From positions 1-55,735 of the IMG/VR virus record IMGVR_UViG_3300044641_004056: a DNA stretch of 55,735 bases. The stretch is one strand, 5' to 3'. Positions 4,034 to 48,934 of the stretch are shown one piece after another (within the stretch, counting starts at the first letter, position 1; the number at the start of each line of letters is the position of its first letter). The notes beneath the pieces are model-generated. The model was not told the DNA's origin. It searched no databases and saw only the letters and a list, made by a program, of their open reading frames with translations. The position numbers and the translations under genes were made by a program. The stretch comes from a virus.

Positions 4034-4253
4034 TAGATTGCTCAACTATTTGCTGAACATACTCTGAAAAATGTTTTCTAATACTTCCTGGTGGCCTGTG
4101 ACCAATATCAGACCATACTCTTTTATACTCATGAATGTTGTCGAATGTTGTTGGGCAAACCAGAACTCCACCATATTCTTTTAATCTTGTTGGAAGAGGT
4201 ACATGCTTGCTGCAGCACTTACACTCTTTAGCTTTTTCTTGATATATACTCAT
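4005..4253 (-). CDS. Small cysteine-rich protein downstream of terL
   Basis: An 82-residue protein with CKCC near residues 11-14 and a further Cys in VLVCPTTFDN, which may form a small zinc site. A later RPPGSIRKHFSEYVQ segment is basic and helical. No family is recognised. It overlaps the terL stop by 4 bases (ATGA), and small genes next to terL in phages are often packaging accessories or HNH nucleases, but no HNH motif is seen here. Confidence 0.65.
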   Translation of the reverse strand: MSIYQEKAKECKCCSKHVPLPTRLKEYGGVLVCPTTFDNIHEYKRVWSDIGHRPPGSIRKHFSEYVQQIVEQSIDKTDSKIL

Positions 4254-6040
4254 ACTATTTCCATTCCACTTAATGCTTCAGAAAGATCCCTAGGCATTGA
4301 TGACGGTGCCTTAATTAAATTTGGGCTTTCTTGCATTAAACTTTCTCTATATTGCTTTTTTACAGAAGAATAGTCATGGACCTCAATATCTCCGAAAGCT
4401 TCTCTTGTTAGACTAATTGCATTGTATATTGAGCCACAAACAGCATCTGCTAAGTCTTTAGATCCTTTTCTTGGGTGGTCAACCTTATCACGCATAATTC
4501 TTAACTCTAATAGCTCATCTACAAGTAATGGTATGTGCGGACCATTTAATCTTTCTTCTAAAACCACCATAGCCATATCATCATAATGCTTTTTTGCAAC
4601 AGATAAAGTTTGAGTATTTATTCCATATTGCTTGAGTTGCTGCATCATATCGTGAGAGTTCCATCTGTCAAATGTACATATTCTAATGTTAAATCCTCTA
4701 GACCTAAGAGACAGAATGTAATCCCTAACCTCAGCAAAGTCTACCGATTTATCTGAGGTAGGAGTCCAATACATTACGGCATCTACTTTAACAATTGGCG
4801 CTGGCTGAGAGTAAGTATCAGTAACTTTTACGCTAACAAACTTTTCAATGTGAGCCATGGATACAGCACAATGGTCATGCTTTTGAGCTAAATCTACGTG
4901 TATGTAATAATCTTTATCTTCTTCTGGTAAGAACCAGTCTTCGAATCTTCCAAAACCGTCAACAGCTATTGATAAATCATTAAATGCCATTTCAATCTTC
5001 TCACGAGATTTAAAAAAAGCATCAATTGCTTCTGGTGGCATGCAGGCAAATCTTCCTAGAGCATCTGTTACATCTCTATAGAATGCAATTTTAAAATCTT
5101 CTATACTTCTTGTTGGGTTAACTTCCCAGGTAGGTCTACGTATTGCATAAACCCTTGGGTACCTGTAAGAAATAATTTGATCTTCATCCCAAAAAATATC
5201 AAACTCGTTACCTATTGTATTTTCTGGAAGGTCTGGATCTAATTTAAACCTATGTGATCTTGATATAATTTCTTTTTCTGAAATAATTTCGTCATATCTT
5301 TGCTGAATGTAGTCATTTTTAAAGCGTGGAAAAGAAAGTAGAATTACTTTACCGTAATCTGGAAAGCGAGAGTCTACTGATGCCCTGTACATGTCATAGA
5401 TACCACTTGCAGTTTTTGCCTGGTCATGTCCACTTGTGCTATCTAGAGCAAAGCCAGAAATTTCATCAAGCACTGCAACTAGAACGTTGTACCCTTCAAA
5501 AGCTTCTCTCTCTGAGTGTCCAGAATAAACTGTAACATTCTTATCAAATTTTATTTCTGAGGCTTTCTCAAAGTACCTACCTATAAACCATGGAGAATGG
5601 GTTACTCTATTTTTAAATCCTTTAAAGAACACATTGTTTGCTTGCTGGGCGTTGATAGCAATATTGATAATATCAATTGAATCTCCTGGTGGCTTACCAT
5701 AATAAGATGCTGGGTCTTTAAGGCATAATAGTAAATAAACTATATAAGCAACAGATATGGTTGAGCAATAATCTTTTCCACTGCCTTTACCTAATTGGGC
5801 AACAACTTCATTACATGTTTGCTTGTATCTTAGTGAGCCTTCTTTTTCCCCAAAAAGTTTAATTAGGGTTGACTCTTTATAAATCTGAGAAGATTTTTCA
5901 ATAAGAGTATATTGATTTTCTGATAACTCAGGAAGGCCAAGGTAGTTTTTGTCTGTTACAAAAGTTCTTAAATCGACAGGCCTTTCTTCAAACTCTTCTC
6001 CGTCAAGTATATCTATGAGATCATCAAAATTAAATTCCAC
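4250..6040 (-). CDS. terL: Terminase large subunit
   Basis: A 596-residue packaging motor ATPase and nuclease. The ATPase half has Walker A GKGSGKD (residues 84-90, with Asp where Ser/Thr is usual) and Walker B VLVAVLDEIS (D192, E193). The nuclease half has the RNase H-like acidic set: D383 in HVDLAQ, D458 in CTFDRW, and D529/D532 in SKDLADAV. It cuts concatemeric DNA and drives it through the portal. The start overlaps the end of the small-subunit candidate. Its position downstream of the replication genes, far from portal and capsid, is unlike the usual terL-portal order. Confidence 0.94.
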   Translation of the reverse strand: MEFNFDDLIDILDGEEFEERPVDLRTFVTDKNYLGLPELSENQYTLIEKSSQIYKESTLIKLFGEKEGSLRYKQTCNEVVAQLGKGSGKDYCSTISVAYIVYLLLCLKDPASYYGKPPGDSIDIINIAINAQQANNVFFKGFKNRVTHSPWFIGRYFEKASEIKFDKNVTVYSGHSEREAFEGYNVLVAVLDEISGFALDSTSGHDQAKTASGIYDMYRASVDSRFPDYGKVILLSFPRFKNDYIQQRYDEIISEKEIISRSHRFKLDPDLPENTIGNEFDIFWDEDQIISYRYPRVYAIRRPTWEVNPTRSIEDFKIAFYRDVTDALGRFACMPPEAIDAFFKSREKIEMAFNDLSIAVDGFGRFEDWFLPEEDKDYYIHVDLAQKHDHCAVSMAHIEKFVSVKVTDTYSQPAPIVKVDAVMYWTPTSDKSVDFAEVRDYILSLRSRGFNIRICTFDRWNSHDMMQQLKQYGINTQTLSVAKKHYDDMAMVVLEERLNGPHIPLLVDELLELRIMRDKVDHPRKGSKDLADAVCGSIYNAISLTREAFGDIEVHDYSSVKKQYRESLMQESPNLIKAPSSMPRDLSEALSGMEIV

Positions 6041-18787: not shown

Positions 18788-18909
18788 TAGTGCTCCGCCT
18801 TTCTATGTCTGCTTAAAGTGTCATGGGCAAAAATGCCCCAACGCACTACCAATTCTTTCTTACATATTTCACATACTACAACTCTTGCTGGGACTACTCT
18901 GCTTTCCAT
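18787..18909 (-). CDS. 40-residue C2H2-like zinc-finger protein
   Basis: A small gene with an ATG at 18909 inside the end of the HTH gene and a stop that overlaps the next ATG (TAATG). The product has VCEICKKELVVRWGI, then FAHDTLSRHRKAEH: Cys-x2-Cys and two candidate His pairs, a C2H2-type finger. It is basic and likely binds nucleic acid. Overlap with both neighbours supports it. Confidence 0.72.
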   Translation of the reverse strand: MESRVVPARVVVCEICKKELVVRWGIFAHDTLSRHRKAEH

Positions 18910-19376
18910 ACTGGCACGAAGTTCCCTTCTGTTGTCTTAGTATACAATATAGTGTTGTGTTTGAGAAGAGCCTTCATCTCATTTTTTGAAGGCATGTTAT
19001 TAGAATACCCTGATTCTAATATAAACTCATGAATGTCCATAATGTCCGATTCACTATACATAAACTTATACCATGTGCTATCTGGGTTACCTATTGGATA
19101 TACTTTCTGAGGATATCTAATTTTCCCGTCCAAAATATAATCTTCTATGGTCACCTTATGCTTGCCAAGCATTTGAGCTACCTGACTAGTTGAGTATGCA
19201 TTTTCCATAGTCTTTAAAACTTGTGAATAAGAATATAGTAATCTCTTTTTATCTGGATAGCACCAAGCAACCATTTGGTCTTTAGATCTTGAATGACTTA
19301 ATACTTTATGTATCTTGTTATTTAAGAAGAAATACCGAATGCTCTTAGTTGGCTGTTTTCTCTTTTTTCTATCCAT
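18894..19376 (-). CDS. MerR/excisionase-like HTH protein
   Basis: A 160-residue protein. The central AYSTSQVAQMLGKHKVTI is a winged HTH of the MerR/excisionase type, followed by FMYSESDIMDIHEFIL, the usual wing and following helix. The N-terminal 50 residues are basic and the C-terminus carries NEMKALLKHNTILY. It probably binds DNA as a regulator of the replication genes. No effector domain of true MerR regulators is present. Confidence 0.76.
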   Translation of the reverse strand: MDRKKRKQPTKSIRYFFLNNKIHKVLSHSRSKDQMVAWCYPDKKRLLYSYSQVLKTMENAYSTSQVAQMLGKHKVTIEDYILDGKIRYPQKVYPIGNPDSTWYKFMYSESDIMDIHEFILESGYSNNMPSKNEMKALLKHNTILYTKTTEGNFVPVWKAE

Positions 19377-19510
19377 TTACCTAGTGCACTCGTATCCTTA
19401 TTGATCATCCATCTTTTACCGCACATCATGCAGAAAAGCTCTACGTGTAATTTTTGTGAAAATACTCTGTCAACAAAAACTCTTCCTTGGCACTTATTGC
19501 ATTTCATCAT
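19322..19510 (-). CDS. Small zinc-ribbon protein (double CxxC)
   Basis: A 62-residue protein with KCNKCQGRVF at the start and FCMMCGKRW in the middle, a two-knuckle zinc ribbon. It is coupled to the metallophosphoesterase stop (ATGA) and overlaps the HTH gene by 55 bases. Zinc-ribbon proteins of this size often contact RNA polymerase or nucleic acid; role unknown. Confidence 0.76.
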   Translation of the reverse strand: MMKCNKCQGRVFVDRVFSQKLHVELFCMMCGKRWMINKDTSALGKWIEKRENSQLRAFGISS

Positions 19511-20307
19511 AGCGTAAATAGCTTCCCATCAACAACACATGAATAGTCTGGTGCCACATGAATCATTTGGATATGAGGATAATCATTAACAATGTGTGCA
19601 ATTGCAAATCCCTTTTGCCAGTCGTGATGCTGCATGTATTTCATACCTGGTCCTTTTTCATCACACATATGACCAAGCTCGTAGCCACGAAGAGTTTCTC
19701 CCTGCCCACCGTTTCTAAGTTCATATGTGACAAGGTGTGAAGCAATTCTGTGAGAGTGTCCTCTAATTAAAGATACTTGGAGGTCTTCCATATCCTTACG
19801 GACAGATCCAGTTGCTGCAATAGAAAGACCATGGTGCACATGGATGTCTCCAAATCTGCGCTTAGGCAATTCATTATAATGAATATACTCATAACCTAAT
19901 GAGTCTAATCCCCACAAAGCCTCTGGAGTAACCTCATTAATATAGTCTGGAAGTTTTGCATCGACATAGTTAAAGATTCTAACATCATGGTTTCCAAGTG
20001 CTGAGAAAAGCTGGGCGTCTGGAAGCATGTCTCTTGTCTTTGTGTAAAAATCTCTAGCGCCTTTAGCTTCATGCCTCATCATAGGAACAATAAGATCTCT
20101 ACTGTCAGTCTTGTGTAGGTTTAAAAATTCTGCTGATCTTCCTTCTGTATATTTACTATAACAGGCTTGATCATCTGTATCGCCAAGGTAGTCAACGACG
20201 TCTGGCTTAAACCACTTCATTACCTTAAACCAGAGGGCAATCATATTATCGTCTTGATACGGGAACTGCTGGTCGGATGATATCATCCATTTTAAATCGT
20301 TGCTCAT
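19507..20307 (-). CDS. Calcineurin-like metallophosphoesterase
   Basis: A 266-residue enzyme of the calcineurin-like phosphoesterase superfamily with the metal-binding motifs in order: SDQQFP (D12; the usual His of DxH is Gln14), YLGDTDD (D43), LGNHDVR (N106, H107), VHHG (H158/H159) and RGHSHR (H184, H186). It probably hydrolyses a phosphodiester such as nucleic acid or a nucleotide. It is the first gene of the replication block, with AAGG 6 bases before the ATG. Substrate unknown. Confidence 0.9.
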   Translation of the reverse strand: MSNDLKWMISSDQQFPYQDDNMIALWFKVMKWFKPDVVDYLGDTDDQACYSKYTEGRSAEFLNLHKTDSRDLIVPMMRHEAKGARDFYTKTRDMLPDAQLFSALGNHDVRIFNYVDAKLPDYINEVTPEALWGLDSLGYEYIHYNELPKRRFGDIHVHHGLSIAATGSVRKDMEDLQVSLIRGHSHRIASHLVTYELRNGGQGETLRGYELGHMCDEKGPGMKYMQHHDWQKGFAIAHIVNDYPHIQMIHVAPDYSCVVDGKLFTL

Positions 20308-20324
20308 TGTCTACCTTAATATGT

Positions 20325-20349
20325 AAAAAAGTCACGGGTACGTGACTTT
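20325..20349 (-). terminator. Rho-independent terminator (or attenuator)
   Basis: On the minus-strand transcript a 9-bp stem AAAGTCACG/CGTGACTTT with loop TACC is followed by a run of U (TTTTTT including the stem end). It ends the structural operon but lies between the promoter at 20362-20389 and the metallophosphoesterase gene, so that promoter's transcripts must pass it. Confidence 0.82.
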
Positions 20350-20351
20350 GA

Positions 20352-20389
20352 TGTTACATTAATTGTAACATATTTATTTAGCCTGTCAA
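20352..20389 (-). promoter_or_regulatory. Promoter of the replication module with overlapping palindrome
   Basis: Minus strand: -35 TTGACA (20384-20389, perfect), 16-base spacer, -10 TACAAT (20362-20367). The inverted repeat TGTTACA-N5-TGTAACA (20352-20370) covers the -10 and start region, a typical operator position. The terminator follows directly downstream. Confidence 0.65.
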
Positions 20390-20395
20390 TAGTGG

Positions 20396-20815
20396 TTAGG
20401 CTGTTGCAGCTGGCTTTGTTCCAGCGCCAATAATATCAAACTTTACACCAGTTATTTTGTTTTTTGTGTTGTTCTGAACATGTAGCACATGAGATCCTAT
20501 TCCACCAGAAATTGACCAGGTTATATCGTGCTTGTATAAACTACCTCCTCTTGGGCATGCTACTAAATACACATCTGAAAATCCAGTCCATTTCATATCA
20601 ATAGGCTCTGAATTATAACCAACGTTTAATCCATTTTCAAATTCAACTCTGTATGCTTTTGTGTAAGTAACAGTTAGGCCAGCTACCTTTTCTGATGTTG
20701 TTTGGCCTAAATCGTAGGCAGCTTTAGTTTCAGTTGCAAGAGCTGTAATAGCGTCTTGCATTTTTTGCAGCTTGACTGAATCTACAGGCTCACCATCTTG
20801 AAATACTTGTGTCAT
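20396..20815 (-). CDS. Structural hypothetical protein, probably tail or fibre related
   Basis: A 139-residue protein: a helical N-terminus (KLQKMQDAITALATETKAAYDL) followed by a glycine-rich beta domain (FENGLNVGYNSEPIDMKWTGF, ending in GTKPAATA). That architecture of coiled coil plus beta domain is usual for trimeric tail-tip or fibre parts. It is the last gene of the structural operon, before the terminator. Confidence 0.62.
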   Translation of the reverse strand: MTQVFQDGEPVDSVKLQKMQDAITALATETKAAYDLGQTTSEKVAGLTVTYTKAYRVEFENGLNVGYNSEPIDMKWTGFSDVYLVACPRGGSLYKHDITWSISGGIGSHVLHVQNNTKNKITGVKFDIIGAGTKPAATA

Positions 20816-21221: not shown

Positions 21222-21239
21222 TTTATTCCTCCTTTCATA

Positions 21240-21401
21240 TTATAGCATTTCAAGTACATTAGTCAAGGCCTCTATCTGAGAATTAGCATCTTCTAGACTA
21301 TAACCTGATTCTTCCGCCAAAATTAGATTCTTAATACCATTTAAATGCTTTATTCTAGAGGATACCATATATCTCTTATACTCAATCTCTTCGATATTCA
21401 T
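21240..21401 (-). CDS. 53-residue helical protein
   Basis: The ATG at 21401 overlaps the stop of the adhesin gene (TAATG). The product MNIEEIEYKRYMVSSRIKHL is helical to the end (IEALTNVLEML). Coupled translation behind the adhesin suggests a small partner or chaperone. Function unknown. Confidence 0.6.
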   Translation of the reverse strand: MNIEEIEYKRYMVSSRIKHLNGIKNLILAEESGYSLEDANSQIEALTNVLEML

Positions 21402-31675: not shown

Positions 31676-32265
31676 ACCTGCTCCAGAGCTATAGTTACGT
31701 TCCAATAAGTTTGTTGTCCTCTTTTTACAACTGTAAAATCAGCAGATGTAAACATTACCAGGTAAGTATAATCATCAGATAAAGGCATTGTTGGATCAGT
31801 TATCAACAATGGATTAAAAACTGTTGGGTTTATTTTTATTCTAAATGGTACTCGTCCTGCATCACTTTCATAAAAATTCTTTATATCTTCTGCCCCCCAG
31901 GCACCATCAACTGTTTCATTTCTAAATGATGGAATCATGTCCCAAGAAACACTAATGTTTAGTTTATCAGCAATAAAATATTTTCTTAAAGTTCCGTCTG
32001 CCATTCTAGTAGACTGCTCAATTCTATTATTGTCTAATGTCAAAGGGCCTCTATTGTGCTCAGTAACTCTTCTAAAAACATTTGTTAGTGCTGCAAATGA
32101 ATAATCAAGTCCGTTTCTAGTCGCCACTGCTGAAGTATAAGTATTTCCTGGAGCAATATAGGTTGAGCCTTTGTAGCTAAAGGAATTATTGACTGGATTA
32201 ATTGCATATGGATCTGCTGCTTCTATGTATAAAATTGATCCTTTGGGTAGGGTTTGAAAACTCAT
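31672..32265 (-). CDS. Distal tail / minor tail protein
   Basis: A 197-residue protein directly after the tape measure, in the place of the distal tail protein. NISVSWDMIPSF, YESDAGRVPFRIKIN and the C-terminal YWNVTIALEQV are typical of the beta-sandwich tail-tip adaptors of siphoviruses of Actinobacteria. Function by position. Confidence 0.7.
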   Translation of the reverse strand: MSFQTLPKGSILYIEAADPYAINPVNNSFSYKGSTYIAPGNTYTSAVATRNGLDYSFAALTNVFRRVTEHNRGPLTLDNNRIEQSTRMADGTLRKYFIADKLNISVSWDMIPSFRNETVDGAWGAEDIKNFYESDAGRVPFRIKINPTVFNPLLITDPTMPLSDDYTYLVMFTSADFTVVKRGQQTYWNVTIALEQV

Positions 32266-35200
32266 TATGGGCCAACCCTTCTATTTACTCCAGCTGCCAT
32301 TTCTTTTAACTTCATCTCTCTGTGTATTTGAGTTGCAACATCTTGTGCTGTTACATTTGTTCCATTTAATTCTACACTAATATTATATACTGATCCTGAT
32401 GCTATTGCAGATGTTGTAGCATTTGGATTAAATGGGTTCATATTGGCTGGGATAACAGCTTCATTCTTATGAATTAATGCTAACATATCTGCTGGAACCA
32501 TATTGATTCCCGCCTCAAATCTAGGCAAGTTCATCATACTTCCAGGTTTATCATTTTGCCCAGGAGCTGTCAGCATTTTGCCAATAGCCTCCATTATTTT
32601 ACTCATATCAATATCTGTTTTGTCGCCCAAAGTGTTTATTGAAGAAGGAATCAATCCTAAAGGTGGCATCTTAGAAAGAATTGATGTTAATATGTTTGGC
32701 TTTTTTACAGCACCTGCTTTTGGAATTATATCTTCCCAGCCTAAATTGCGAGCTAGATCCGCTAGAGCTTCAAAATTATCAGACCCTCCTATGATATTGT
32801 GGCTTTTGAGAAACTCTCCAATTCCCAAATAGATTTCAGATTGAGGACCAGCAGCTTTTGGCTCAAATATTTTCATCATAGCTGCACTAGTTTCCATCCA
32901 TGAGCTAGTAACCTGGCTAGCTCGCCCATGCATTCCCATATATAGAGTACTATATAAGTTATCGAGTAACAGTGAAGCAGATTCTATAGGGTTAGATGAA
33001 GATCCACTTATATTATAAGCTTTGCCTTTATCCCAACGGCTCATTAGGCTCTCACGACCAGGTACTTTATCTCTTAAAGTTTTTATTGCTCTATGTGAAA
33101 ATAAATCAGCATATGTCTCTGAAACTCCGCCCCTGCTTACATTTTCCAATCCATATGCTGCAAGTAGCCTTCCCAAGTCCTCAATCTTACCAATTAGACT
33201 TTGGTCTCTATGACCAAGTTCATGTAATAAAGTTGTTGGTTTTGCATGGCGGTGTGTACTCATGCCTCCAAGACCATCGCTTCTTAGCTTAAGATCTGGC
33301 ATGTGCAATCCTAGGCCTAAATGTTGATAAAAAGCTGGGTTATCAGCATTTGGAGTAAGGTATGCTTGGCTTCTTTCTAATAAAGCCTTAAGCCCCTTAG
33401 AAGACCCATCTGCGAGTTGCTTGGAAAGCATGTGAGCTTTTGATAACTGCTTTGGAGTGTCTATGGTTATTCCAGTGCCTTTTTCTATTGCTGTTGTTAT
33501 CCATGGAGAATCTGGGACTCCTCCAATTCCTCTTGTAAAAGTTTCTGTTGCAGAACGTAGCTGTCTAATTATTTCGCCATATTTTTCTTTGGCAAGTGTC
33601 GGAGCCAAGGCGCCACCGTCCATTAGCTTATTCAATAACTTTGGAAACAATACAGTATTATCAAAAATCTCTAAGGGCAAATTGCCTTTTTGAGCTGCCT
33701 TAATAGAAGAATACTTAAATGGATTAAATGATTTTAATAAAGGAAGAGTGTTTTGTGCTCTTTCTACTGTTTCCATAATAGATGCTTTTGCAATAGTTCC
33801 TGCACCCTTTAATCCTTTTCCGCCTTTAACAAGTGATGATCCTGGAACAAAATTTAACGCTGTCCAAGCGTAGTCCCCCTTGGTTCCACTACCTGCTATT
33901 ATTTCTTCAATTGGCTTTCCAACGCTATCGTAAACAAAATTTTCTACTGATTTAAATCCAGGGACTTTTTGGAATTGAGAAATTATTGGAATATTTCTAA
34001 AAATACCTTTAAGTATTCCTTCGGTGTACTTTCTTGTACCAGGAGCTTTATCTACAGCTTCTGTATTTTTTCCAAATTGATTGAAGTAACTACTTACTTT
34101 ATTTTTTAGTCCTCCAAATAAGCCTCCATTTTTATAACCTGGAACTAGGCCACCATCTGCATATCCAAGAGCTGCTGTATAAAGAGAGTGTGGGTCTTTG
34201 CCAATATTTTGTATTGCTGGCGTTCCACCACTGTTTATTAATAGACCGCCAAGCGTGGTCTCACCTTTATACTTAGGCCTTCCAAAACCGACTATAGATG
34301 CGCCTGGATGATTGTATAACCTTTCTCTTCTGAATACTCCATCTCTAATTCTGTTTACTCTGTCTTCATCATAATACTCTTTAGCTTCGTATCCCTTTGG
34401 AAAGACTAGAGGTGGAGCTACCTCTGAAGTATTTCCTTCAATAGTTTGAAGCTTTGTGTCTGATAAAATTCTTCTAACTAGACCTATGTGCTGAATTCTA
34501 TCTTTGCCTGGCTTGTTGTTATCATAATCATAGTTAAAGAATGCCATATCTCCGACCTGTGGGCCTTCTGTATGATAATCACCTTTTGCTTTAAACTTCT
34601 GAGCACCTGCTGGGGTGTAAACCATATTGTCTAGCGGAACTCCAGCAGCACTTGCTACCCAGTTCATAAAGGCACCGCACCAAGAAATAAACCGAGAGTT
34701 TATTGCACTATCTCTGTCGTTTTGCCATTTGCCAAAGAATGTGTCGTTATCCTCTTTGCCCTCTTTATATCCCACCATCGACTCTGCTGCGGTAATCATT
34801 GTAGACAGCTTACCGTCTGGCTTTATTCTATTCATAGACGGATCTGGTTTTTTATGAATTACTGGTCCTCCACTAGCAAACATGAGTCCGCCTTTTGCAA
34901 AACCAGGAACTGTAGCCGTTGATGTATCACTTGGTTGCATTGGAACCGTATTTGGTTGTAAGTTTGGATCAATAGGTGACAATTTAATTGGTTGAGGTTT
35001 TTTAAATGTTGGACTTACTGAACCAAATAGGTCTAGGCTACGAATATTATAACCTGTCTCCTTAACTTCATCTCCGTCGCCATACCATCCAATTACATCA
35101 ATTATATCTTTACCAACTCTAGAAACTATAGATGCATGATCTGGAATACCGTCTCTGATTAACCTAGTTTCATTTCGGCTCTCTCGTTGTTGATAATCAA

Positions 35201-38200
35201 ACCAAGCTAAGTCTCCAACTTTAATATTTTTATAATTGTTCTTTTTAGTTAAATCATTAAAAACACCTTTTTTCTTATACTGTTGGGTTGCCTGCCATGC
35301 ACTATGCATTTTATCTGATATTTCAACTCCAGCTTTTTCAGCTACCCAGGCAACAAATTGTCCACACCACCATGTAACGTCATTGCCTATACCAAATTTT
35401 TTATTTCCCCAGATATTAAACTTATTAGTGTCAGACATTCCACTGTCAAAGAAGCGATCATCGCCAGGGACTGCACCTGCTTGTTGAGAACCAAACCCTC
35501 CGTCAGGAGTCATTCTGTCATGGAGTCTGTAGTTGTGACCTGATCCAATCTGGCTTCTTGCAATATCTAAAAATCTTCGAAGAGATCCCATTGGTGATTT
35601 GATATCACTTATACCATAATCTTTTGTTGGTGGACTATAGAACTCATCCATACCCTTTTTCCAAAGAGTTCCCGTAGGCATGACTGGAACATATCTATTA
35701 TCACCTAATGAAATTCGTGACGGTGCCAATGTACCATCAGGTAAATGTGCATGATTAACTGGGCCGCCCTTATGGAACTTCTGTGTATTAATTGCATCAA
35801 GTGTTCTAACACCATATTTTGCAACAGATGATGCTTTAACTACATATTCTCCATGCGAAAGCATTGCTGGAATAGAATCAGATGTTCCAGTTCCTGGACC
35901 AGTTATGTGTCCTCCCGCTGCTTTGTTAACTGTCCAAACAAGAACTGGTGGGGATGCATTCCTATCAATAGACTCAATTCTTATCGATCCAGATTTTTTA
36001 ACTCCAGCAGATCCCATTGATAAAGCCATAATAGAACCATTTGGGCCAACTTCAAGAATTGTGCCTGGTTGTAGATTTCTTCCACCACCCTTAAATGAGG
36101 CTGGCGAAGCAGAATAGAATCCTTCTTGCAAGTACTCTTTGTCTCCAGTTATCTGATTTGTTATGGTCTCCGCAACACCCTTTTGGCCCTTCTTGCCTAG
36201 AGTATTTCGGTTAGCTGTAACTCCAGTTGAAAATGCACTTATTCCTTCAGATTTATCCTTAAATCCTAAAGCCTTTAAAAGAGCTATTCTCAGTCTATCT
36301 AAAGTTGTTCCTCCAGTTATATCTTCTGCAATGTTTGCTACCGCTGCTACGTCCCTATTAAACTGATTTAAAATATTTGGGCTTATTGTTGTGGTAGTAT
36401 CATATATAGGCTTGCCGTTTTTATCAAATCCAGTAGGAGACCCAGTTGGTTTTGTAGTTACTGTAGTAGCTACTGCCTTTCCGTCTTTATCAAAATACTT
36501 TGAAAAGCCATCACGTACTACTTTTGCAAGAGCGGTATTGCCAGTACCTGCTACTTGAATTTCTTTAATTAATGCAACTAGAGAGTCTTTAATTTTATTC
36601 TCTTCTGCTACTCTTTCTTCATCTGGAAGAAACTGAGATTGAACAGCACGTTGAGTCAAATCATTGTATTGTTGCTGGAAAGTAGTAAGCTTTGAAGCTA
36701 TTTCCTGGGCGATTGCTGCCCTGTCCTGAGCGTTTTGTAGCGCAACTGCTTTTTTATCAGATGCTTCTTGTATCCTCTCAGACTTTTTCTCTAAAGGCGC
36801 TTTTGCTGCATTTGCAGCATCTTCTATTGCTTTTTGAGCAAGCTCCGATTGTCTATTTAAAGTAAGTTGATCTATGTCTAGTTTAGCTTGGTTTGCTCTA
36901 GCCATATCTCCACGAGAAACAGCGTCAGCATATTCAATCTGTAGCTTTTGTAATTCCAAAGCATAGTTTGATGCTTCTTGAGTTGCTCTTAATGCTTCTA
37001 ATTTTTTATTCTTTTCATCATCAATAAGCTTAATCTTTTTAGCAATTAATTTTAATTCATCCTGTGCGCTTCTCTGTGCAGCAGCAGCAGATCTTTGTGT
37101 AGCAGCTGAAACAGATCCTATAGTTTTTTTCAACTTCTCTAGGGCTGAGCCCACTGTTCCAAATGTGGTTGCGGAATCTCCTGCTTTGGTCAACTGGGCA
37201 ATTCCAGATCCAATCGCTTCTGTAAATCCAGCTAACCTTATTGCTAAGCCAGAATCAATTTTACTTAAATCAATACCAATCTGATCTGTGAACAAAGCAT
37301 ACTTTGCCAATATTCCCTTTAAGCTGTCTGCTTCATTTGAAATACCAGCTAATATTGGTTGGGTTTTTGCAAGGTTCTCGTATACCTCTGAGCCAATTGC
37401 GTCATTAAATCCTGGATACATTTTTTCTGAGCTAGACATAACCATTTCATATGCTCTATACTCATCTATAACATTGCCCATCTCGTCTTTTGTTCCGACC
37501 AAACCTGCTCTTGCTGCCTCGAATGTACCGATTAGTCCTTCAAATCCAGCAGCAATCTCTTTGCCCCAATCAACCATGCCAGAGCCCCTATTGATTGTAT
37601 TTATTAAGTTTCCAACAGCATATTCTGCAGCAGTTGATTTATCTGTAATCTTTCCAAATGCGCTATTTCCAAGGAGATCAAATGCCTCCATAGACTTTTT
37701 GCTATTAAGTAATGCTCCATATATCTTTCTGTTGGCTTCTTCAACACTCATTCCGCCTGCAATAAATTGAGCTTTTGTGCTTGTTAAAAGTCTCTTGCTC
37801 TCTTCTGGGCTTGCTGATCTATTGATAGATTCAATCAAGTCTTTCAGGCCTTTACCCTCTTCTTTAGCTTTCTTAATATCTTCTACGGATTGAGGTAGAC
37901 CAGGCATTCCTATTCCATTATTCTTGGCAGCCTGCCCTGCAGCTCTAACGGCTTCTGCTTTATCTAGATAACCTTGCATTTGCTCTTTTAGATTAAAGTA
38001 TTTTACTCCAGCTTCTTCTGCTGCTCTAGATGTTAATGAAAGCCCCATGGTAGCATCTTGAGACTCATCTTTAAAGTGCTTGTAAAGTTTAAAAGCTGCG
38101 GTAGCTATAGTTATTAATATTCCTATAGGACCAAATCCTTTTACAAATCTCATAACACCTGCGAAAATTTTTGTTAAAGTTAAAGCACCCATCTGTATAG

Positions 38201-41200
38201 TCTTTAAACCTTTACCTAAACCAATAGCTCCAGCCTTGGCTGCAGTAAGAAATTTTGTAAGAGGAAGGAATGGAAGAATGCTGCTTGCAGCCATAACTCC
38301 CATACCAGCAGACATTCCAGACATTTCTCTTCCAAGTATGTTTACCTTCTCTTTACCCATCAGGGTCATTCCAGCCATTGAGCCAGCCATGCCGATACCC
38401 ATGCCCATGCCCATTCCCATGCCTTGCCTTTGAGGAACTTGAACTCCAGCAGCTCTAGCTTGTGCTGCCGACATTGAAACGGCTTGTCCGCCAGTTGATG
38501 CGTTGTTTACAAGGTACTCTGTTTTTCTAAATCCTAAGCTTCCAACTTTTCTAGATTGTACGCCATCTCCACGATCCTTATACCTTCCAATATATCCTGG
38601 CCCCATGAATCCTTGTGGTGGAACCATTCCAGCAGGATAATGTCTTGCAGCATACGCATTTTGTTCTTGTATAACTGAATTCCTAAATGCTGATGCTCTT
38701 GCCGCAATGGCACTTGCACCCGATTGTAAAGCAGTACCTAATGATTTTGAAGCTGCTACCATTCCAGTAGCAAATTTTTGTGAAGCTGCTATCATTGACA
38801 TAGCAGACTCTTTATATGCTTGATAATGATGAGTTCCAGATGTCTTAAGACCATATCTTAGAGTTGTAACACCTCTTGAAATCGACATAGATAAATCTTT
38901 AAAAGCTTGTGATATTGCTGCTGTATTTCCAATTCCTGGAATATTCATTGGCATTGTTGGCATGTTCATATAAGGGAATTGTGCAAGTCTCATTGTGCTA
39001 ACTGTTCTGGCCATAGATGCAGTAGGGACTCCAGTATAAGCATTACCACGAACTCCAGTGCCGCCAACATAAGGAACACGTGCCACTTGCATCTGAGGAT
39101 TGTCAGTTGCTGTATATGAAGATCCACTACGTTGATTGTAAGACGCGGCTCGCTCTGCCCTAGCTCTTTCCTGTGCTGCTCTTGCAGCTGGGTTCCCCTT
39201 TTTACCGTAAGCGTATCTGCCTGATCTAACTGGACCGCCAACAGGTCCACCAGAATTAAGATATTTTGGATTAGCATGCATAGAATGATACTTAGCCCAA
39301 TTGACATCCATTCCCGCTTCAAACCTTTCAAGAAGTGCTAGGTAAGGTTTTCTTTCTTTTTTAGGAATAGCAAGAATGTATCTCTTTAGTTCTGGATAGG
39401 CAGCTTCCATTTTCTTTTTTATAGCAGCTCCATATTGTCTTGGAGTCATTTGTCCGATAATAGGAGCGGTGTCACGAGCAAAATCTTTTCTAGCTCCACC
39501 CTTAACTTGTAGCAAATTGATCATTGCCATCTCTTCCATAGAAGGCATTGTTTTTGCATAGTCATCGTTCATAGATGCTTTAGCTAATACTCCTGCATTA
39601 CTAACATCGGCTAGTCGTCTTCCATGAACATTTGCTCTTGATAAATCTTTATTGCCAAAAATAAGAGATGCAATGAGCTGATCTAAAGCTTCATCCTGAC
39701 TAAACTTTCCAGGAACAGAAGTATTTGGATTAATAAATCCTTCATCATAAGGTGATTCTGCCCCACGGAATTTTGATTTTCCAGTTGGGTCTAATGGGTT
39801 GCGAATTGTTTTTCTAGTCTGAACGGGAGTAATAAGACCTAGTATTCTTCCGATATCTGTTCCTCTAGTTTCTGCAACTAAACTTTTTTCATTTGGAACC
39901 GCTTTAAAGAACACTCTATTTTTTTGCTGATCGTCATAAACTCCACCAACTCCAGGTACAGGAAAGCTGCGTCCCGTGCTTTCCGATATTATATGGCTAT
40001 ATGATGCTTCTGGATAAGGAGAGCGTCCTGTAAAGGACATTGTACGTGCATGCTGTAAAACCTTTAACTGTTGAGTTGGCGTTAACAGCCTAAGCAATGT
40101 CGGTAGGTTACCATAGTTTAATCTACCTCTAGAGATAGACCCGCCTGGAATCATTCCCCCAAGGTTGTAGCCTGCTGGTACGAGTCTAGGTGGTCTTCCT
40201 GGTATCCACCTTTGTCTTGTTGCTGCAGCCTCTAAGAACATGCTCCAAGAATTTCTTTGTTTTCTATTGGCCCTTACAACAGTACCAGACTCTATTTGTG
40301 CCCTGGTTTTAAACTTACCGTCGTCCATAACTGCTGCATATAGATCGTCTACTGTTGCAAACTTATCCATACCTGTTCTCTTCAAAGCTAGTGCAAAATT
40401 TTCTCTTGCATCTGCTGCATTTAAATTTAAAACATCTCTTGATAGACCCAGAGTTTCAAGCCTGCTCATTATGTTATTTATTCCAGAAGGAAGAACTGCA
40501 GCTAGTCCCATATAGCCGCTGGTCATATAACCAAGAGAACCCCTGCGTCTAAAATGTGCTCTATCATGTAATCCCTGAATAATAGGCATACCTTTTTTAT
40601 TTTTAAATGTTGTTGGAGAAACTGCAGATATTAAATCATGCACTCCAGCAAATCTTTGGTCGCGGAGCATTGCATCTCTAACTTTATTTAAATTATAATT
40701 AAGAGCCTTACTGCTACTTATTTCAGCAGTTTTAGCATTTTTAACTTTTAGCGCTGGATGTTTTTTTTCTAAATCTTGTACTTGTTTAATTCTTAGTTTT
40801 ACAAATTGTTCATCAGATCCACCAGATTGCATTTTAGCAGAATCAAAATTGGATGTTGCTGTCTGGATAGCTTTATCCATAGGCATTTTTGCAGTATAAG
40901 ATAGTTCTGCTGCATCCAGCATAATCATTCTTACTCTCATATCATCTTCGTACCTTGGATTATTAATGAATCTTAAATATTCCTTGTACTGTTTTTTGAA
41001 TAGTCTTTCATCCATTTTACTGCCTGGAGTGTTAGCTGTTTTCTTTCCGTATCCAGTAACACCATTCATGATCTGACCGCCAAAATTATATCCACTATTT
41101 GCTGCATCTACTGCTGCGTATAGCTCAGGCATTCTCTGAATCTGTGGACCAAAGACAACTTCCCGTGGTGTAAGAGCTGCTGTGATGCTTCCGCCATCGT

Positions 41201-44078
41201 TTAAGTAAGTAGATGGAGCCATAGCAACTAGCGCAGCATTTGCTGGATCCATAGAAGCTTGTTGGTTTAAAACATATCCTCCAAGAGGAACGTTTCCTAG
41301 TCTGTCATCATAGTTAACTGAAGAAGGGCCCGAAACCACAGTCTTGTTTGGTCCGAACGATTCTATGTCTCCACCAGTATTGAATCTAGGAGGCCTTGTT
41401 GTTTGAATGCTGTAAGGGGCGCCAAATGTTCTTATTCCTCGAAGCCTTCCGAACTCGTTCATTACGGCAGCATTTGCTTTTTTCTTATAAAGATCTCTTA
41501 GTGTAAATTGTCCATTTGCATCAACAACTGGTTGATCCATCATTGGAGCTCTTGTTAAATCTATTGTTCTTCCTCGGCCTGCTGCGTATGCAGTTACTGC
41601 AGCTCCCATGTCTGCCTCTATTTGTGCATTCAATGCAATTATTCTTGCTTTTGCTTGTTCGACTGTTATTTCTGCATTTCTCATTTGCTGAACTATTGCA
41701 GCTGATTGAGTTGCTGCACTATCTGCAAACCTTTGAGTTATAGGAAGTATATCGTCAAATGTGTCTAGTAGCTCTCTGCTTACCGTTCCGCCCATTGCAA
41801 TTGTTTTCTTTAAAGCTGCAATTTCTTGTTGGCTTTGCATTCCAAGTGTCGCCATTAATGCGTGGTGCTTTGCTGCTTCACCTGGAACAATTCCTGTAGA
41901 TATTCCTTTTATACTTGTTAGCCCTTCAACATTTGGAAGTCTATCATGCATATAAATTTGAGGAGTTCTTGATATTCCTCTATTTACTGGGACTGCTCCT
42001 GGAACTCCTCCAAATAGTGTTGCAGGATTGTTTGGGTCTCTTGGGTTAATATGAGACATAGCTCTAGTATTAGGGTCTCCAACATATGGATCGCTAGGAT
42101 CAACTACTCTTCTTCCAGCAATCATTATAGGTGCACCGCCAACTGTGCTTACTCCTGGATTTACTGGTATAGCATTTTTAGCTGATACTGCTTGAAGGCT
42201 CTGATAATCCAAAACAAGTTTTTGTAATGCGTTGTGAAGAACTTGGGCAGCTGCTGCATCTGAATAAAATGCAGTTTCAACCATTTCAGCTGCTTTTTGA
42301 GCAGCAATAATTTCTGGGGTAAGCATCTTCCAGCCATTGGCTTTCATAAAGAATGCTCTTAGCTGAACGATACCCTTAGTTATATATCCAAAGAAGTTTG
42401 CAAGAACACCAGTTAACATAATAAGTGGTCCAACTAATGCAGTAAATCCTGCTAAGAAAGTAAGAGCTTTTTTAATTGGGGCTGGCAAACCAGTAAAGAA
42501 ATCTAATATCTTAGTTGCTGCAGTTATAAGCTTAGTAGCTACACCTAAAAACTCTTCGCCGACATCTGCAAGCTCTGCTTTAAGACCTTCAATTGCTCTT
42601 TTATATTTACCCGATGCAGACTCGGTAATCATTTTTAATTCTCGAGTAGCAATATCTGCTAGCTCTCCAGTAGTTGCCTTCATTAAGTTCAAAACTTGAA
42701 GAGTCTGGCTTCCTTCTTTACCTAAGTTATTAAGCAATGCGCTCATTCTTGCAAACTGGAACTTTCCAAACATTTGCTCCATTGCTCGTGCTTTACTTAA
42801 TGGGTCCAACGAATCCAAAGCTTTTTGTAAATCCATGAGGAGTCCAGTAGTGTCTCCAGTATTTTTTGCAACCATCCCCATTACATCTATGCCAAAATCT
42901 GACATCATGCCAACAGTTTGCTTTGTTGGGTTAATGAGAGATGCTAAACCAGACTTAAGTGCATTAGCACCTTCTGATGCGTTAATACCACCCTCACGCA
43001 TTGCAGTTAGATAAAGAGCTAAGTCTTTAACATCTCCACCAAGTTGCTGAATTACTGGACCAGCCTTTGGAATTGCTTCTACCAAATCTCCTAGAGTTGT
43101 TGAAGTCTGGTTTTCGACTGCGTTCAAAAAGTTAATTGATTCTGTAAGTTCTTCAGTATTCTGTTTAAACGCTGTTTGAATAGATAGAGTTGCCTTCATT
43201 GCGTCTTGTCTATCAACTTCACCAAGTATGGATAGTCTTGTTGTTTCAGCAATAGAATCCAAAAGCTGATTGCCCATTTGGCCTGTAGCTGCAATATCAG
43301 CACCTAATGCAATAGTGTCTTTAAAAGATGCACCCATTGTTTTAGACAGAGTCTTTGCGGTCTCTACAACCTCTTCTCTAACTCTTTTTAACTCTGTTGC
43401 AGATGTTGCAGCTAATCCACCGTAAACTTTTGTAAGTCTTACTAGCTCTTGATCTGCCTCTCTAAAAGCTTTTCCTGCTGCCGATCCAAACATTGTAAGA
43501 GGAACTGTTAAACCAACAGTTAGCTGTCTACCAGCCCACTGAGTATTTTTACCCCAGTTAATTAAAGATCCTGCTCCTTCAGACAATGCACGATTCATGA
43601 TCTGCATTTCCATACGGGCTAACTTTCCACTATTTGCTATAGCATCTAGGCCTCTAGGAATCATAACGTTGTACTGCATTAAACCTTGAGCATTTCTGCC
43701 TAGCGGTTGCAGCACTGAATTCTGAAGCATTACCTGCTCTTTGGCAAGCTCCCTTATCATACCCTTTTGAGTTGTAGCATGTTCTCTAAATGTTGAGAAG
43801 TAGTTCCTAAGCTTTAATCTACCAGCATCTAGATTTTTACCGAACTTATCTACATCAGAATTAAGGTTTACGAAGTGGCTAGAATACTGACCGCTTCCAG
43901 TTAATGTATCTCTAAATAAGTTATTTGCTAATTTTGTAGAAGAAGATATAGCTCTGTTTGATGCAAGCAGCTCTCTTTGTAATTGTTGTAGACTGGCACT
44001 AGCCCTGTGTACTTCAGACACAAGGCTAGACAAGTCGGCTTTGGCGACTATACTCGTTACAATTTGTTCGTCAGCCAC
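32265..44078 (-). CDS. Giant multidomain tape-measure protein
   Basis: A 3937-residue tail tape measure, GTG start at 44078 with AGGAG. Residues 1-890: TP901-type core (TQWAGRQLTVGLTVPLTMFG; LPAPIKKALTFLAGFTALVG). Glycine-rich linkers (FNTGG, YNFGGQ, YNLGG, LNSGG, GYKNGG) at about 898, 1000, 1304, 1608, 2720, 3062 and 3310 separate modules. Residues 1304-1608: kinase-like domain (K1392, E1403, D1478, N1483, D1491). About 2070-2130: hydrophobic segments. About 2326-2466: coiled coil. About 2850-3000: CHAP domain (C2905, H2981). About 3110-3220: second CHAP (C3134, H3197). About 3560-3680: metallopeptidase (HELGH 3619-3623, later ETYAD). It sets tail length and probably breaches the cell wall. 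Core is certain; kinase is inference. Confidence 0.9.
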   Translation of the reverse strand: MADEQIVTSIVAKADLSSLVSEVHRASASLQQLQRELLASNRAISSSTKLANNLFRDTLTGSGQYSSHFVNLNSDVDKFGKNLDAGRLKLRNYFSTFREHATTQKGMIRELAKEQVMLQNSVLQPLGRNAQGLMQYNVMIPRGLDAIANSGKLARMEMQIMNRALSEGAGSLINWGKNTQWAGRQLTVGLTVPLTMFGSAAGKAFREADQELVRLTKVYGGLAATSATELKRVREEVVETAKTLSKTMGASFKDTIALGADIAATGQMGNQLLDSIAETTRLSILGEVDRQDAMKATLSIQTAFKQNTEELTESINFLNAVENQTSTTLGDLVEAIPKAGPVIQQLGGDVKDLALYLTAMREGGINASEGANALKSGLASLINPTKQTVGMMSDFGIDVMGMVAKNTGDTTGLLMDLQKALDSLDPLSKARAMEQMFGKFQFARMSALLNNLGKEGSQTLQVLNLMKATTGELADIATRELKMITESASGKYKRAIEGLKAELADVGEEFLGVATKLITAATKILDFFTGLPAPIKKALTFLAGFTALVGPLIMLTGVLANFFGYITKGIVQLRAFFMKANGWKMLTPEIIAAQKAAEMVETAFYSDAAAAQVLHNALQKLVLDYQSLQAVSAKNAIPVNPGVSTVGGAPIMIAGRRVVDPSDPYVGDPNTRAMSHINPRDPNNPATLFGGVPGAVPVNRGISRTPQIYMHDRLPNVEGLTSIKGISTGIVPGEAAKHHALMATLGMQSQQEIAALKKTIAMGGTVSRELLDTFDDILPITQRFADSAATQSAAIVQQMRNAEITVEQAKARIIALNAQIEADMGAAVTAYAAGRGRTIDLTRAPMMDQPVVDANGQFTLRDLYKKKANAAVMNEFGRLRGIRTFGAPYSIQTTRPPRFNTGGDIESFGPNKTVVSGPSSVNYDDRLGNVPLGGYVLNQQASMDPANAALVAMAPSTYLNDGGSITAALTPREVVFGPQIQRMPELYAAVDAANSGYNFGGQIMNGVTGYGKKTANTPGSKMDERLFKKQYKEYLRFINNPRYEDDMRVRMIMLDAAELSYTAKMPMDKAIQTATSNFDSAKMQSGGSDEQFVKLRIKQVQDLEKKHPALKVKNAKTAEISSSKALNYNLNKVRDAMLRDQRFAGVHDLISAVSPTTFKNKKGMPIIQGLHDRAHFRRRGSLGYMTSGYMGLAAVLPSGINNIMSRLETLGLSRDVLNLNAADARENFALALKRTGMDKFATVDDLYAAVMDDGKFKTRAQIESGTVVRANRKQRNSWSMFLEAAATRQRWIPGRPPRLVPAGYNLGGMIPGGSISRGRLNYGNLPTLLRLLTPTQQLKVLQHARTMSFTGRSPYPEASYSHIISESTGRSFPVPGVGGVYDDQQKNRVFFKAVPNEKSLVAETRGTDIGRILGLITPVQTRKTIRNPLDPTGKSKFRGAESPYDEGFINPNTSVPGKFSQDEALDQLIASLIFGNKDLSRANVHGRRLADVSNAGVLAKASMNDDYAKTMPSMEEMAMINLLQVKGGARKDFARDTAPIIGQMTPRQYGAAIKKKMEAAYPELKRYILAIPKKERKPYLALLERFEAGMDVNWAKYHSMHANPKYLNSGGPVGGPVRSGRYAYGKKGNPAARAAQERARAERAASYNQRSGSSYTATDNPQMQVARVPYVGGTGVRGNAYTGVPTASMARTVSTMRLAQFPYMNMPTMPMNIPGIGNTAAISQAFKDLSMSISRGVTTLRYGLKTSGTHHYQAYKESAMSMIAASQKFATGMVAASKSLGTALQSGASAIAARASAFRNSVIQEQNAYAARHYPAGMVPPQGFMGPGYIGRYKDRGDGVQSRKVGSLGFRKTEYLVNNASTGGQAVSMSAAQARAAGVQVPQRQGMGMGMGMGIGMAGSMAGMTLMGKEKVNILGREMSGMSAGMGVMAASSILPFLPLTKFLTAAKAGAIGLGKGLKTIQMGALTLTKIFAGVMRFVKGFGPIGILITIATAAFKLYKHFKDESQDATMGLSLTSRAAEEAGVKYFNLKEQMQGYLDKAEAVRAAGQAAKNNGIGMPGLPQSVEDIKKAKEEGKGLKDLIESINRSASPEESKRLLTSTKAQFIAGGMSVEEANRKIYGALLNSKKSMEAFDLLGNSAFGKITDKSTAAEYAVGNLINTINRGSGMVDWGKEIAAGFEGLIGTFEAARAGLVGTKDEMGNVIDEYRAYEMVMSSSEKMYPGFNDAIGSEVYENLAKTQPILAGISNEADSLKGILAKYALFTDQIGIDLSKIDSGLAIRLAGFTEAIGSGIAQLTKAGDSATTFGTVGSALEKLKKTIGSVSAATQRSAAAAQRSAQDELKLIAKKIKLIDDEKNKKLEALRATQEASNYALELQKLQIEYADAVSRGDMARANQAKLDIDQLTLNRQSELAQKAIEDAANAAKAPLEKKSERIQEASDKKAVALQNAQDRAAIAQEIASKLTTFQQQYNDLTQRAVQSQFLPDEERVAEENKIKDSLVALIKEIQVAGTGNTALAKVVRDGFSKYFDKDGKAVATTVTTKPTGSPTGFDKNGKPIYDTTTTISPNILNQFNRDVAAVANIAEDITGGTTLDRLRIALLKALGFKDKSEGISAFSTGVTANRNTLGKKGQKGVAETITNQITGDKEYLQEGFYSASPASFKGGGRNLQPGTILEVGPNGSIMALSMGSAGVKKSGSIRIESIDRNASPPVLVWTVNKAAGGHITGPGTGTSDSIPAMLSHGEYVVKASSVAKYGVRTLDAINTQKFHKGGPVNHAHLPDGTLAPSRISLGDNRYVPVMPTGTLWKKGMDEFYSPPTKDYGISDIKSPMGSLRRFLDIARSQIGSGHNYRLHDRMTPDGGFGSQQAGAVPGDDRFFDSGMSDTNKFNIWGNKKFGIGNDVTWWCGQFVAWVAEKAGVEISDKMHSAWQATQQYKKKGVFNDLTKKNNYKNIKVGDLAWFDYQQRESRNETRLIRDGIPDHASIVSRVGKDIIDVIGWYGDGDEVKETGYNIRSLDLFGSVSPTFKKPQPIKLSPIDPNLQPNTVPMQPSDTSTATVPGFAKGGLMFASGGPVIHKKPDPSMNRIKPDGKLSTMITAAESMVGYKEGKEDNDTFFGKWQNDRDSAINSRFISWCGAFMNWVASAAGVPLDNMVYTPAGAQKFKAKGDYHTEGPQVGDMAFFNYDYDNNKPGKDRIQHIGLVRRILSDTKLQTIEGNTSEVAPPLVFPKGYEAKEYYDEDRVNRIRDGVFRRERLYNHPGASIVGFGRPKYKGETTLGGLLINSGGTPAIQNIGKDPHSLYTAALGYADGGLVPGYKNGGLFGGLKNKVSSYFNQFGKNTEAVDKAPGTRKYTEGILKGIFRNIPIISQFQKVPGFKSVENFVYDSVGKPIEEIIAGSGTKGDYAWTALNFVPGSSLVKGGKGLKGAGTIAKASIMETVERAQNTLPLLKSFNPFKYSSIKAAQKGNLPLEIFDNTVLFPKLLNKLMDGGALAPTLAKEKYGEIIRQLRSATETFTRGIGGVPDSPWITTAIEKGTGITIDTPKQLSKAHMLSKQLADGSSKGLKALLERSQAYLTPNADNPAFYQHLGLGLHMPDLKLRSDGLGGMSTHRHAKPTTLLHELGHRDQSLIGKIEDLGRLLAAYGLENVSRGGVSETYADLFSHRAIKTLRDKVPGRESLMSRWDKGKAYNISGSSSNPIESASLLLDNLYSTLYMGMHGRASQVTSSWMETSAAMMKIFEPKAAGPQSEIYLGIGEFLKSHNIIGGSDNFEALADLARNLGWEDIIPKAGAVKKPNILTSILSKMPPLGLIPSSINTLGDKTDIDMSKIMEAIGKMLTAPGQNDKPGSMMNLPRFEAGINMVPADMLALIHKNEAVIPANMNPFNPNATTSAIASGSVYNISVELNGTNVTAQDVATQIHREMKLKEMAAGVNRRVGP

Positions 44079-44745
44079 TAATTACTCCTAGAGTATCCTA
44101 ACCCTGCTCCAACTCCAAACCCAGCTTGCGCTGCCAAAGGCCCTTGTAATCCAACAACATCATCTGCTGATGCATTTATTCCAAGTGCTCTTCTTTGGAT
44201 ATCTTCAAAGGTAGAACCTTTTTTTTCTTCTTCTACATCATCATCTAATTGTATACCTTTTAGTGATGCTGCGAATCTTCTTTGGTTATGCTCTTTCTCG
44301 TTTATCGCTGTTATGGTTTGAACCAATTCTGGCATCGATAAATTTTCTTCTAGCTCTTCGTAATTCTTCCAGTGTCCTAGAAGAAATACTTGGCCTTCTA
44401 AAGCGGCTAAATCTAGTTCTGACCAGCCAGTACCGCTGCCGCTATCAGGTTTGGGTCGTCCATCTTAATTCCTCCGCAAACCTCAAGAATGCGGTTAATT
44501 GTTGGAACATCTAATGCTTCTTCAAGCTTGTCCATATCCTTAACAAGATCTGGTAGTTGAACTTCTAATGCTACTCCGCATGCTTCAACTAAAATTCCAA
44601 GTGTAGCAGTTTCATCTTCTGCATCTTGTACTTTCTTAATTACTTCCATGAACTTACGTAGTTGCTTGATTGATAATGGCTTGAGCTTTACTTTAGCTCC
44701 GCTTTGTAGTTCAATCTCTTCTACGTCATATACTGTTGTTGCCAT
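44078..44745 (-). CDS. Tail assembly chaperone gpGT-like fusion (-1 frameshift product)
   Basis: The upstream frame from 44745 is read through AAC at 44449, then ribosomes slip back one base on CCCAAAC and continue in the second frame to 44078, giving 222 residues. The second frame is open without a start from just after a TAA near 44464 and continues GWSELDLAALEGQVFLLGHW, then MPELVQTITAINEKEHNQRR. This G-GT arrangement just before the tape measure is nearly universal in long-tailed phages. The GT product recruits the tail-tube subunit onto the tape measure. The ATG at 44335 in the second frame is probably not used as a start. Confidence 0.86.
44413..44745 (-). CDS. Tail assembly chaperone gpG-like protein
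   Basis: A 110-residue helical protein with KPLSIKQLRKFMEVIKKV and DVPTINRILEVCGGIKMDDPNL, similar in plan to siphovirus tail chaperones: about 100 residues, acidic, ends soon after the slippery site. GAGGAGG lies 5 bases before the ATG. The stop TAG is at 44413-44415. Produced in excess over the frameshifted form, it is expected to coat the tape measure before tube assembly and is absent from the virion. Confidence 0.86.
   Translation of the reverse strand: MATTVYDVEEIELQSGAKVKLKPLSIKQLRKFMEVIKKVQDAEDETATLGILVEACGVALEVQLPDLVKDMDKLEEALDVPTINRILEVCGGIKMDDPNLIAAAVLAGQN
44449..44455 (-). other. Programmed -1 frameshift site CCCAAAC
   Basis: The heptamer C CCA AAC is in the correct X-XXY-YYZ phase of the upstream chaperone frame. 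After slippage the P-site CCA re-pairs with CCC and the A-site AAC with AAA. It lies 34 bases upstream of the zero-frame stop, and the downstream -1 frame is open across that stop. Confidence 0.85.
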
Positions 44746-44773
44746 TTTATCCTCCTCAAGGATCGTCTAAATT

Positions 44774-44802
44774 ATTATAGCATAACCATTATACGGATAC
44801 AA
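44774..44802 (-). promoter_or_regulatory. Extended -10 promoter before the chaperone/tape-measure genes
   Basis: Minus strand: -35 TTGTAT (44797-44802), 17-base spacer, -10 TATAAT (44774-44779) with TG two bases upstream. It starts immediately after the hairpin at 44806-44833, so transcription is reset between the tail tube and the chaperones. Confidence 0.6.
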
Positions 44803-44805
44803 CAC

Positions 44806-44833
44806 CAAAGCCCTCAATTTCTTGAGGGCTTTG
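44806..44833 (-). terminator. Hairpin after the major tail protein gene
   Basis: A perfect 12-bp stem CAAAGCCCTCAA/TTGAGGGCTTTG with a GAAA tetraloop on the transcript. There is little U-run after it (GTGTTGTAT), so it may be a partial terminator or an mRNA-stabilising 3' end for the abundant tail-tube message. Confidence 0.75.
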
Positions 44834-44852
44834 ATATTAATTATTAATATAA

Positions 44853-48831: not shown

Positions 48832-48858
48832 GTGTATACTCCTTTGGTATGTATATAA

Positions 48859-48887
48859 ATTATAGCACTATAAAATTAAAATGAAAA
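48859..48887 (-). promoter_or_regulatory. Extended -10 promoter after the capsid terminator
   Basis: Minus strand: -35 TTTTCA (48882-48887, overlapping the hairpin base), 17-base spacer, -10 TATAAT (48859-48864) in TGCTATAAT, the same extended -10 as at 44774. It restarts transcription for the connector and tail genes. Confidence 0.6.
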
Positions 48888-48914: not shown

Positions 48915-48934
48915 GGTAGTTATTTCTTATTTAA

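Follow-up and report, generated by a model that had tools for sequence, protein, structure and literature searches.

The window analyzed here is a virus record of 55,735 nt (55.7 kb) taken at its full length; relatives of it reach about 115-120 kb. All genes around the site under study are read from the minus strand. Between a small ORF and the metallophosphoesterase gene that heads the replication operon lies an intergenic gap of 88 bases (Table 1), in which the minus strand reads TTGACA, 13 bases, TGTTACAATTAATGTAACA, TC, AAAGTCACGTACCCGTGACTTTTTT, AAGG, and then ATG. On the 5' side of this cassette are the portal, head, tape-measure, and tail genes, followed by the small ORF, for which no PHROG family match was found. 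On the 3' side are genes for the metallophosphoesterase, a small HTH protein, DnaB helicase, primase, SSB, a Pol III alpha-type polymerase, and RecA. A first-pass annotation had described a promoter, an inverted repeat, and a terminator-like hairpin stacked at this border, and all three are present there, on the minus strand, a strand that the annotation had not named. It had also placed the hairpin before the first replication gene; the location was right, and that first gene is the metallophosphoesterase, with DnaB and the others coming after it.

Some other features of the neighborhood were recorded. The tape-measure protein (3937 aa; window 32265-44078, minus strand) contains an endolysin-like stretch at ~residues 3092-3220. 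A terminase-large-subunit-like protein is encoded at 4250-6040 (minus strand), downstream of the replication genes and distant from the portal and head genes. Rfam matches were to tRNAs only. A replication origin at the site was considered and rejected, as a GC-skew switch is absent there.

Table 1. Positions of the cassette elements and flanking features in the window
Feature	Position	Strand	Basis
Upstream extended -10 promoter TTGACT-N16-TATAAT, ahead of two small genes	21239..21266	-	promoter scan
Small ORF, stop codon adjoining the -35	20396..20815	-	sequence; without PHROG match
-35 element TTGACA	20384..20389	-	promoter scan; TTGACA in 141/151 distinct relatives
H1, inverted repeat ATGTTACA-ATTAA-TGTAACAT	20351..20371	-	repeat scans; compensatory changes and variable loop in relatives
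Extended -10 TGT-TACAAT (hexamer 20367-20362)	20362..20370	-	promoter scan; relatives
Predicted transcription start (about 20355), within the H1 right arm	20354..20357	-	inferred from distance to the -10
H2, 9-bp leader hairpin AAAGTCACG-TACC-CGTGACTTT	20328..20349	-	fold; changes on both sides in relatives
T-run TTTTTT ending H2	20325..20330	-	sequence; relatives
AAGG, ribosome-binding-like site	20314..20317	-	sequence
Metallophosphoesterase gene, head of the replication operon	19507..20307	-	phrog_221, E 7e-52
Small HTH protein, replication operon	18894..19376	-	phrog_9440; HTH_17 below Pfam's cut-off

The regions preceding the metallophosphoesterase gene were gathered from viral contigs with similarity scans, five in all, and a single DNA-pattern scan, giving 199 distinct regions; the pattern scan produced at least 120 matches, many of them unrelated chance matches. 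IMG/VR holds hundreds of relatives, and every relative that bears the cassette is a metagenome contig. Among named phages, the closest infect Rhodococcus (Grayson, Weasels2, Trina, and NiceHouse are examples), and the cassette is missing at the corresponding place in the four phage regions examined (Grayson, Weasels2, Peregrin, and NiceHouse). The one indication of an actinobacterial host is relatedness to phages of Rhodococcus, Streptomyces, and Mycobacterium, and our impression is that the relatives are of freshwater origin. One group of relatives (L265, L266, L272, L296, L298, and L305) lacks both hairpins and has a quite dissimilar sequence before the gene (TTGAC...TAGAAT, spacer 18), and the gene itself is still conserved in them.

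The significance of the individual parts comes from their conservation in relatives and not from their rarity in the window. The promoter is an 11/12 match with an N16 spacer and a TG ahead of the -10, while 9-of-12 matches number 28 in the window against 37.6 expected and are commoner in shuffled sequence. Inverted repeats of 8+8 bp are not rare by themselves either, with 20 in the window versus 1-15 in ten Markov-shuffled controls. Promoter statistics were compiled from the first 153 upstream regions, in 151 of which the promoter was recognized. Among these distinct relatives the spacer is 16 nt in 140, the -10 is TACAAT in 110, and TG precedes the -10 in 135; the letters of the spacer are free to vary while its length stays fixed. 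This near-invariance bears out the TTGACA-N16-TACAAT promoter proposed earlier and argues for a genuine element under constraint. In a check of nine relatives, each about 110-120 kb long, no further place had the full promoter. With TTGACA, a spacer near the 17 nt expected, and TGn before TAnnnT, all kept in relatives, it has the makeup of an extended -10 sigma-70/sigma-A promoter, and this conserved host-type (sigma-A/sigma-70-like) element presumably drives the replication operon in vivo. Because the promoter and a leader hairpin stand before the same gene in most of ~190 distinct contigs, they probably control the replication genes. A divergent promoter arising from the symmetry of the -10 was rejected, since the antisense hexamer lacks the conserved final T in many relatives.

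The hairpin downstream of the promoter, H2, has a predicted energy of -10.7 kcal/mol (z -5.3 versus shuffles), and 8 of its 9 pairs have changed on both sides with pairing preserved. In most relatives its first base falls 12-14 nt past the -10, regardless of the presence of the upstream inverted repeat (H1), and 5-7 nt past the predicted start. The constancy of this distance with or without H1 indicates that H2 is placed relative to the promoter and is part of the local leader, so that the earlier point that local transcripts must pass the terminator is correct as a matter of geometry. In the window, a stable stem is followed directly by a T-run, as in an intrinsic terminator, and in 158 of 187 relatives the T-run is at least 4 bases long. 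By the d'Aubenton-Carafa score, which was devised for E. coli terminators and is used here in our own implementation, the window's hairpin has a value of +4.0; values above 0 were obtained in 130 of 188 relatives and never in shuffled family leaders. The score is -10 or lower in 44 of 188, or about a quarter of lineages, and several lineages carry a strong hairpin of unrelated sequence from which the T-run is missing (GGCCATGAATATTCATGGCC; e.g., GGCCATGA-ATAT-TCATGGCC). An extended lower stem seen in the window's fold, in which bases beyond the T-run pair with the H1 right arm, was rejected, as other lineages do not keep that pairing.

From its sequence, an attenuator role for H2 is plausible, as had been suggested. 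The fraction of lineages without a terminator-like score tempers that suggestion, as does the leader itself, in which neither an alternative antiterminator fold nor a leader peptide was found. Early/late switching by antitermination is a possible candidate role. In most lineages, H2 might act as a weak promoter-proximal terminator or attenuator about 30 nt past the predicted start, and in lineages lacking the T-run it would provide at least a structure at the 5' end. Alternatively, H2 could serve mainly to stabilize the 5' end of the long replication mRNA or to shield it from RNase, with the T-run incidental, a reading that is compatible with a hairpin role for H1. Its fixed distance from the -10 and the lineages that retain an unrelated hairpin without a T-run are what would be expected of such a shield. 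The frequency of the T-run and of positive terminator scores, compared with none in shuffles, is not, and we consider this alternative possible but somewhat unlikely.

The extended -10 doubles as the left arm of H1. The core of the repeat, TGTTACA-N5-TGTAACA (7+5+7, 20352-20370; 8+8 bp when extended), is the window's sole match to that pattern at fewer than 3 mismatches. In relatives, the arms occur as TGTTACA/TGTAACA or as TGCTACA/TGTAGCA, with the right arm tracking changes in the -10. When right arms were counted without selecting for pairing, T-type -10 elements were accompanied by GTAAC 76 times and by GTAGC twice, and C-type elements by GTAGC 20 times and by GTAAC in no case; these unselected counts are the unbiased evidence for pairing. 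Further compensated pairs join TACACT with GTGTA (GTGTAACA) and TATAAT with ATAACA. On the gene tree, all 6 phylogenetically independent pairs on well-supported branches agree on the covariation of the arms (p 0.03), a test made weaker by the possibility that 20-base haplotypes move between lineages by recombination. In an alignment of 60 sequences, the covariation of H1 and H2 together exceeded all 500 shuffles, and the pairing was lost when the partner was shifted by 1-3 columns; the percentage paired in this alignment is biased upward because its sequences were picked for H1 (at least 5 pairs). RNAalifold recovers the core of both helices. When right arms were swapped between clusters as a test of H1, the excess was 4.64 versus 4.15 (SD 0.19), which is only modest because the -10 is nearly invariant and swapped right arms still pair.

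These data bear on the first-pass proposal that the repeat may serve a TGTTACA-binding repressor as its operator. Under an operator model of this kind, a dimer on TGTTACA-N5-TGTAACA over the -10 and start would shut the replication promoter, and H2 would be an ordinary terminator or leader hairpin. The dyad over the -10 and start is perfect, symmetric changes in the two arms could track an altered repressor, spacing 5 is common (12 haplotypes), and an HTH gene lies within the operon. Binding of a rigid dimer to duplex DNA requires half-sites at a nearly fixed spacing, whereas hairpin formation does not. The spacing between the arms ranges from 2 to 8 in relatives, with 5, 6, and 7 all common, and inner pairs are added as the spacing widens, an added pair being present in 11 of 15 haplotypes at spacing 7 versus 3 of 12 at spacing 5. 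There are also register shifts, such as GAATATGTTA/TAGCATGTTC. The regulator compared with the site type was the operon's HTH protein; its recognition-helix region is similar whether the phage is T-type or C-type and so does not follow the site, and this protein is not supported as the ligand of the repeat.

Additionally, the repeat occurs in a single copy per genome. The early region of phiC31 contains promoters with conserved inverted-repeat operators and stem-loop terminators without U-tails, and its sites have many copies, fixed spacing, and a known repressor. The cassette resembles that region in setting promoters of a putative actinophage beside inverted repeats and stem-loop terminators, and differs from it in copy number and in variable spacing, although multiple copies, as in phiC31 or stoperators, are not required of every operator. 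We therefore disfavor the operator and regard it as unlikely; the pattern of change in relatives supports an inverted repeat that behaves as a nucleic acid hairpin. It is important to point out the more general caution that a dyad over a -10 is not always an operator, and that relatives can distinguish a hairpin from a protein site.

Whether this hairpin would form in RNA or in DNA was judged from its mismatches. One-sided changes in the H1 core are mostly G.U in the transcript sense (GU 5 and UG 7 cells), and by haplotype there are 10 G.U versus 4 A.C, a modest lean to sense-strand pairing that favors H1 as RNA, or as single-stranded DNA of the transcript sense, though not decisively. The predicted start lies inside the right arm, so a local transcript would lack the left arm and H1 would be confined to RNA from upstream (or to single-stranded DNA). 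H1 could instead act as DNA, forming a cruciform, or a hairpin within a single strand, where the promoter melts and so tuning opening, escape, or the response to supercoiling. It overlaps exactly the melting region, and a variable loop with kept arms suits DNA strands equally well; given the lean of the mismatches toward G.U in the RNA sense, we rate this reading as rather improbable.

H1 is missing in about a third of lineages, with at least 34 state changes on the gene tree, and its presence showed no phylogenetic association with the T-run on that tree; H1 and the T-run as a single functional unit were rejected for this reason. Template-switch repair of quasi-palindromes, which homogenizes the arms of inverted repeats (PMC8604942, PMC3820800), could keep the arms perfect without selection on H1 and would suit such frequent changes, but it is quite improbable given a dyad position that is constant across diverse lineages, several of which show G.U pairs instead of perfectly repaired arms, and extra pairs that accompany longer spacing.

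Taken together, we tentatively favor a compact promoter and leader cassette that combines an attenuator with a barrier to upstream read-through, with H1 forming as a hairpin in upstream RNA (probability roughly 0.45). The local transcript would start inside the right arm of H1 and carry, of the two hairpins, only H2 with its T-run, the first base of H2 being 5-7 nt in. RNA that comes in from the tail-side operon upstream would carry both hairpins about one nucleotide apart, as is the gap in 37 of 77 cases, and this tandem-hairpin 3' end may stop or protect the read-through RNA. More speculatively, polymerase released at the site might restart at the adjacent promoter, as released polymerase has been seen to do on other templates in single-molecule work (PMC6978380).

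Read-through RNA probably does enter from upstream. Of 188 relatives, 101 have promoter-like sites at a distance of 0.5-1.4 kb upstream, versus 4 on the opposite strand, although some of them may be conserved coding sequence. In some relatives, sites resembling TTGACT-N16-TATAAT lie ~1 kb upstream of the metallophosphoesterase gene, and the window's own promoter of this form (Table 1) is a likely source of the read-through RNA.

It is possible to go further and read the cassette as a sensor of transcript origin, in which RNA from the late tail operon folds H1 beside H2 and is stopped or trimmed, while local RNA without H1 passes. In folding predictions, the probability of H2 is equal in local and read-through RNA. 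Since H2 is equally stable with or without H1, a physical link between H1 and termination is not supported. We hold this sensor to be doubtful. If it did operate, a gap of less than 90 bp would insulate the replication operon from late read-through with no regulatory protein.

Of the systems compared, the layout closest in logic to the cassette is that of T4 late promoters in leader hairpins. In T4 genes e, soc, and I-TevI and in Aeh1 mobE, the promoter lies in DNA coding for the 5' strand of a hairpin, which forms only in RNA begun upstream and hides the ribosome-binding site (PMC3014915, PMC2988022). The -10 studied here, being the left arm of H1, is likewise within the region coding for the 5' strand. 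However, the promoter is of host type rather than T4 late, and sequestration of the ribosome site as in T4 was rejected, as the predicted accessibility of the site and start hardly differs between the two RNAs (0.59 versus 0.57). With the H2 fold unchanged and the ribosome site exposed, neither a classical antiterminator switch nor translation control in the T4 mode is supported.

Intrinsic terminators and attenuators at the heads of operons share with H2 a stem, a T-run, and, in most relatives, a positive terminator score, and differ from it in that H2 would lie about 30 nt past the predicted start and has lost its T-run in some lineages. In HK022 put RNA and Tn916 canT, structured RNA made early decides passage of terminators; terminator T1 of Tn916 blocks outside read-through (PMC9378689, PMC11658703). 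Both antiterminators show that mobile elements do distinguish RNA read through from outside from RNA of their own. The cassette, too, would have structured RNA early in the transcript. Unlike put, which has about 70 nt and two stem-loops, the predicted local transcript has one 22-nt hairpin, the sequence of which has been replaced between lineages.

The phages that carry this cassette form an abundant and largely uncultured group. If hairpins over a -10 do sort RNA by its start point, a very small sequence would serve as an insulator, and the observed covariation supplies a ready mutational test.

Two other borders in the window, at 44740-44860 and 48826-48940 (minus strand), also combine a hairpin with a promoter. 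Each has a GC-rich hairpin (AAAGCCCTCAAGAAATTGAGGGCTTT; AAAAGCCCCCAATTAATTTTGGGGGCTTTT), then an extended -10-like promoter (TGCTATAAT), then ATG. The d'Aubenton-Carafa scores of these hairpins are -11 and -13, which indicates that the score is not a strict guide in this window. The hairpin precedes the promoter at both borders, which counts against the favored reading of the cassette and is the reverse of the order at 20300.
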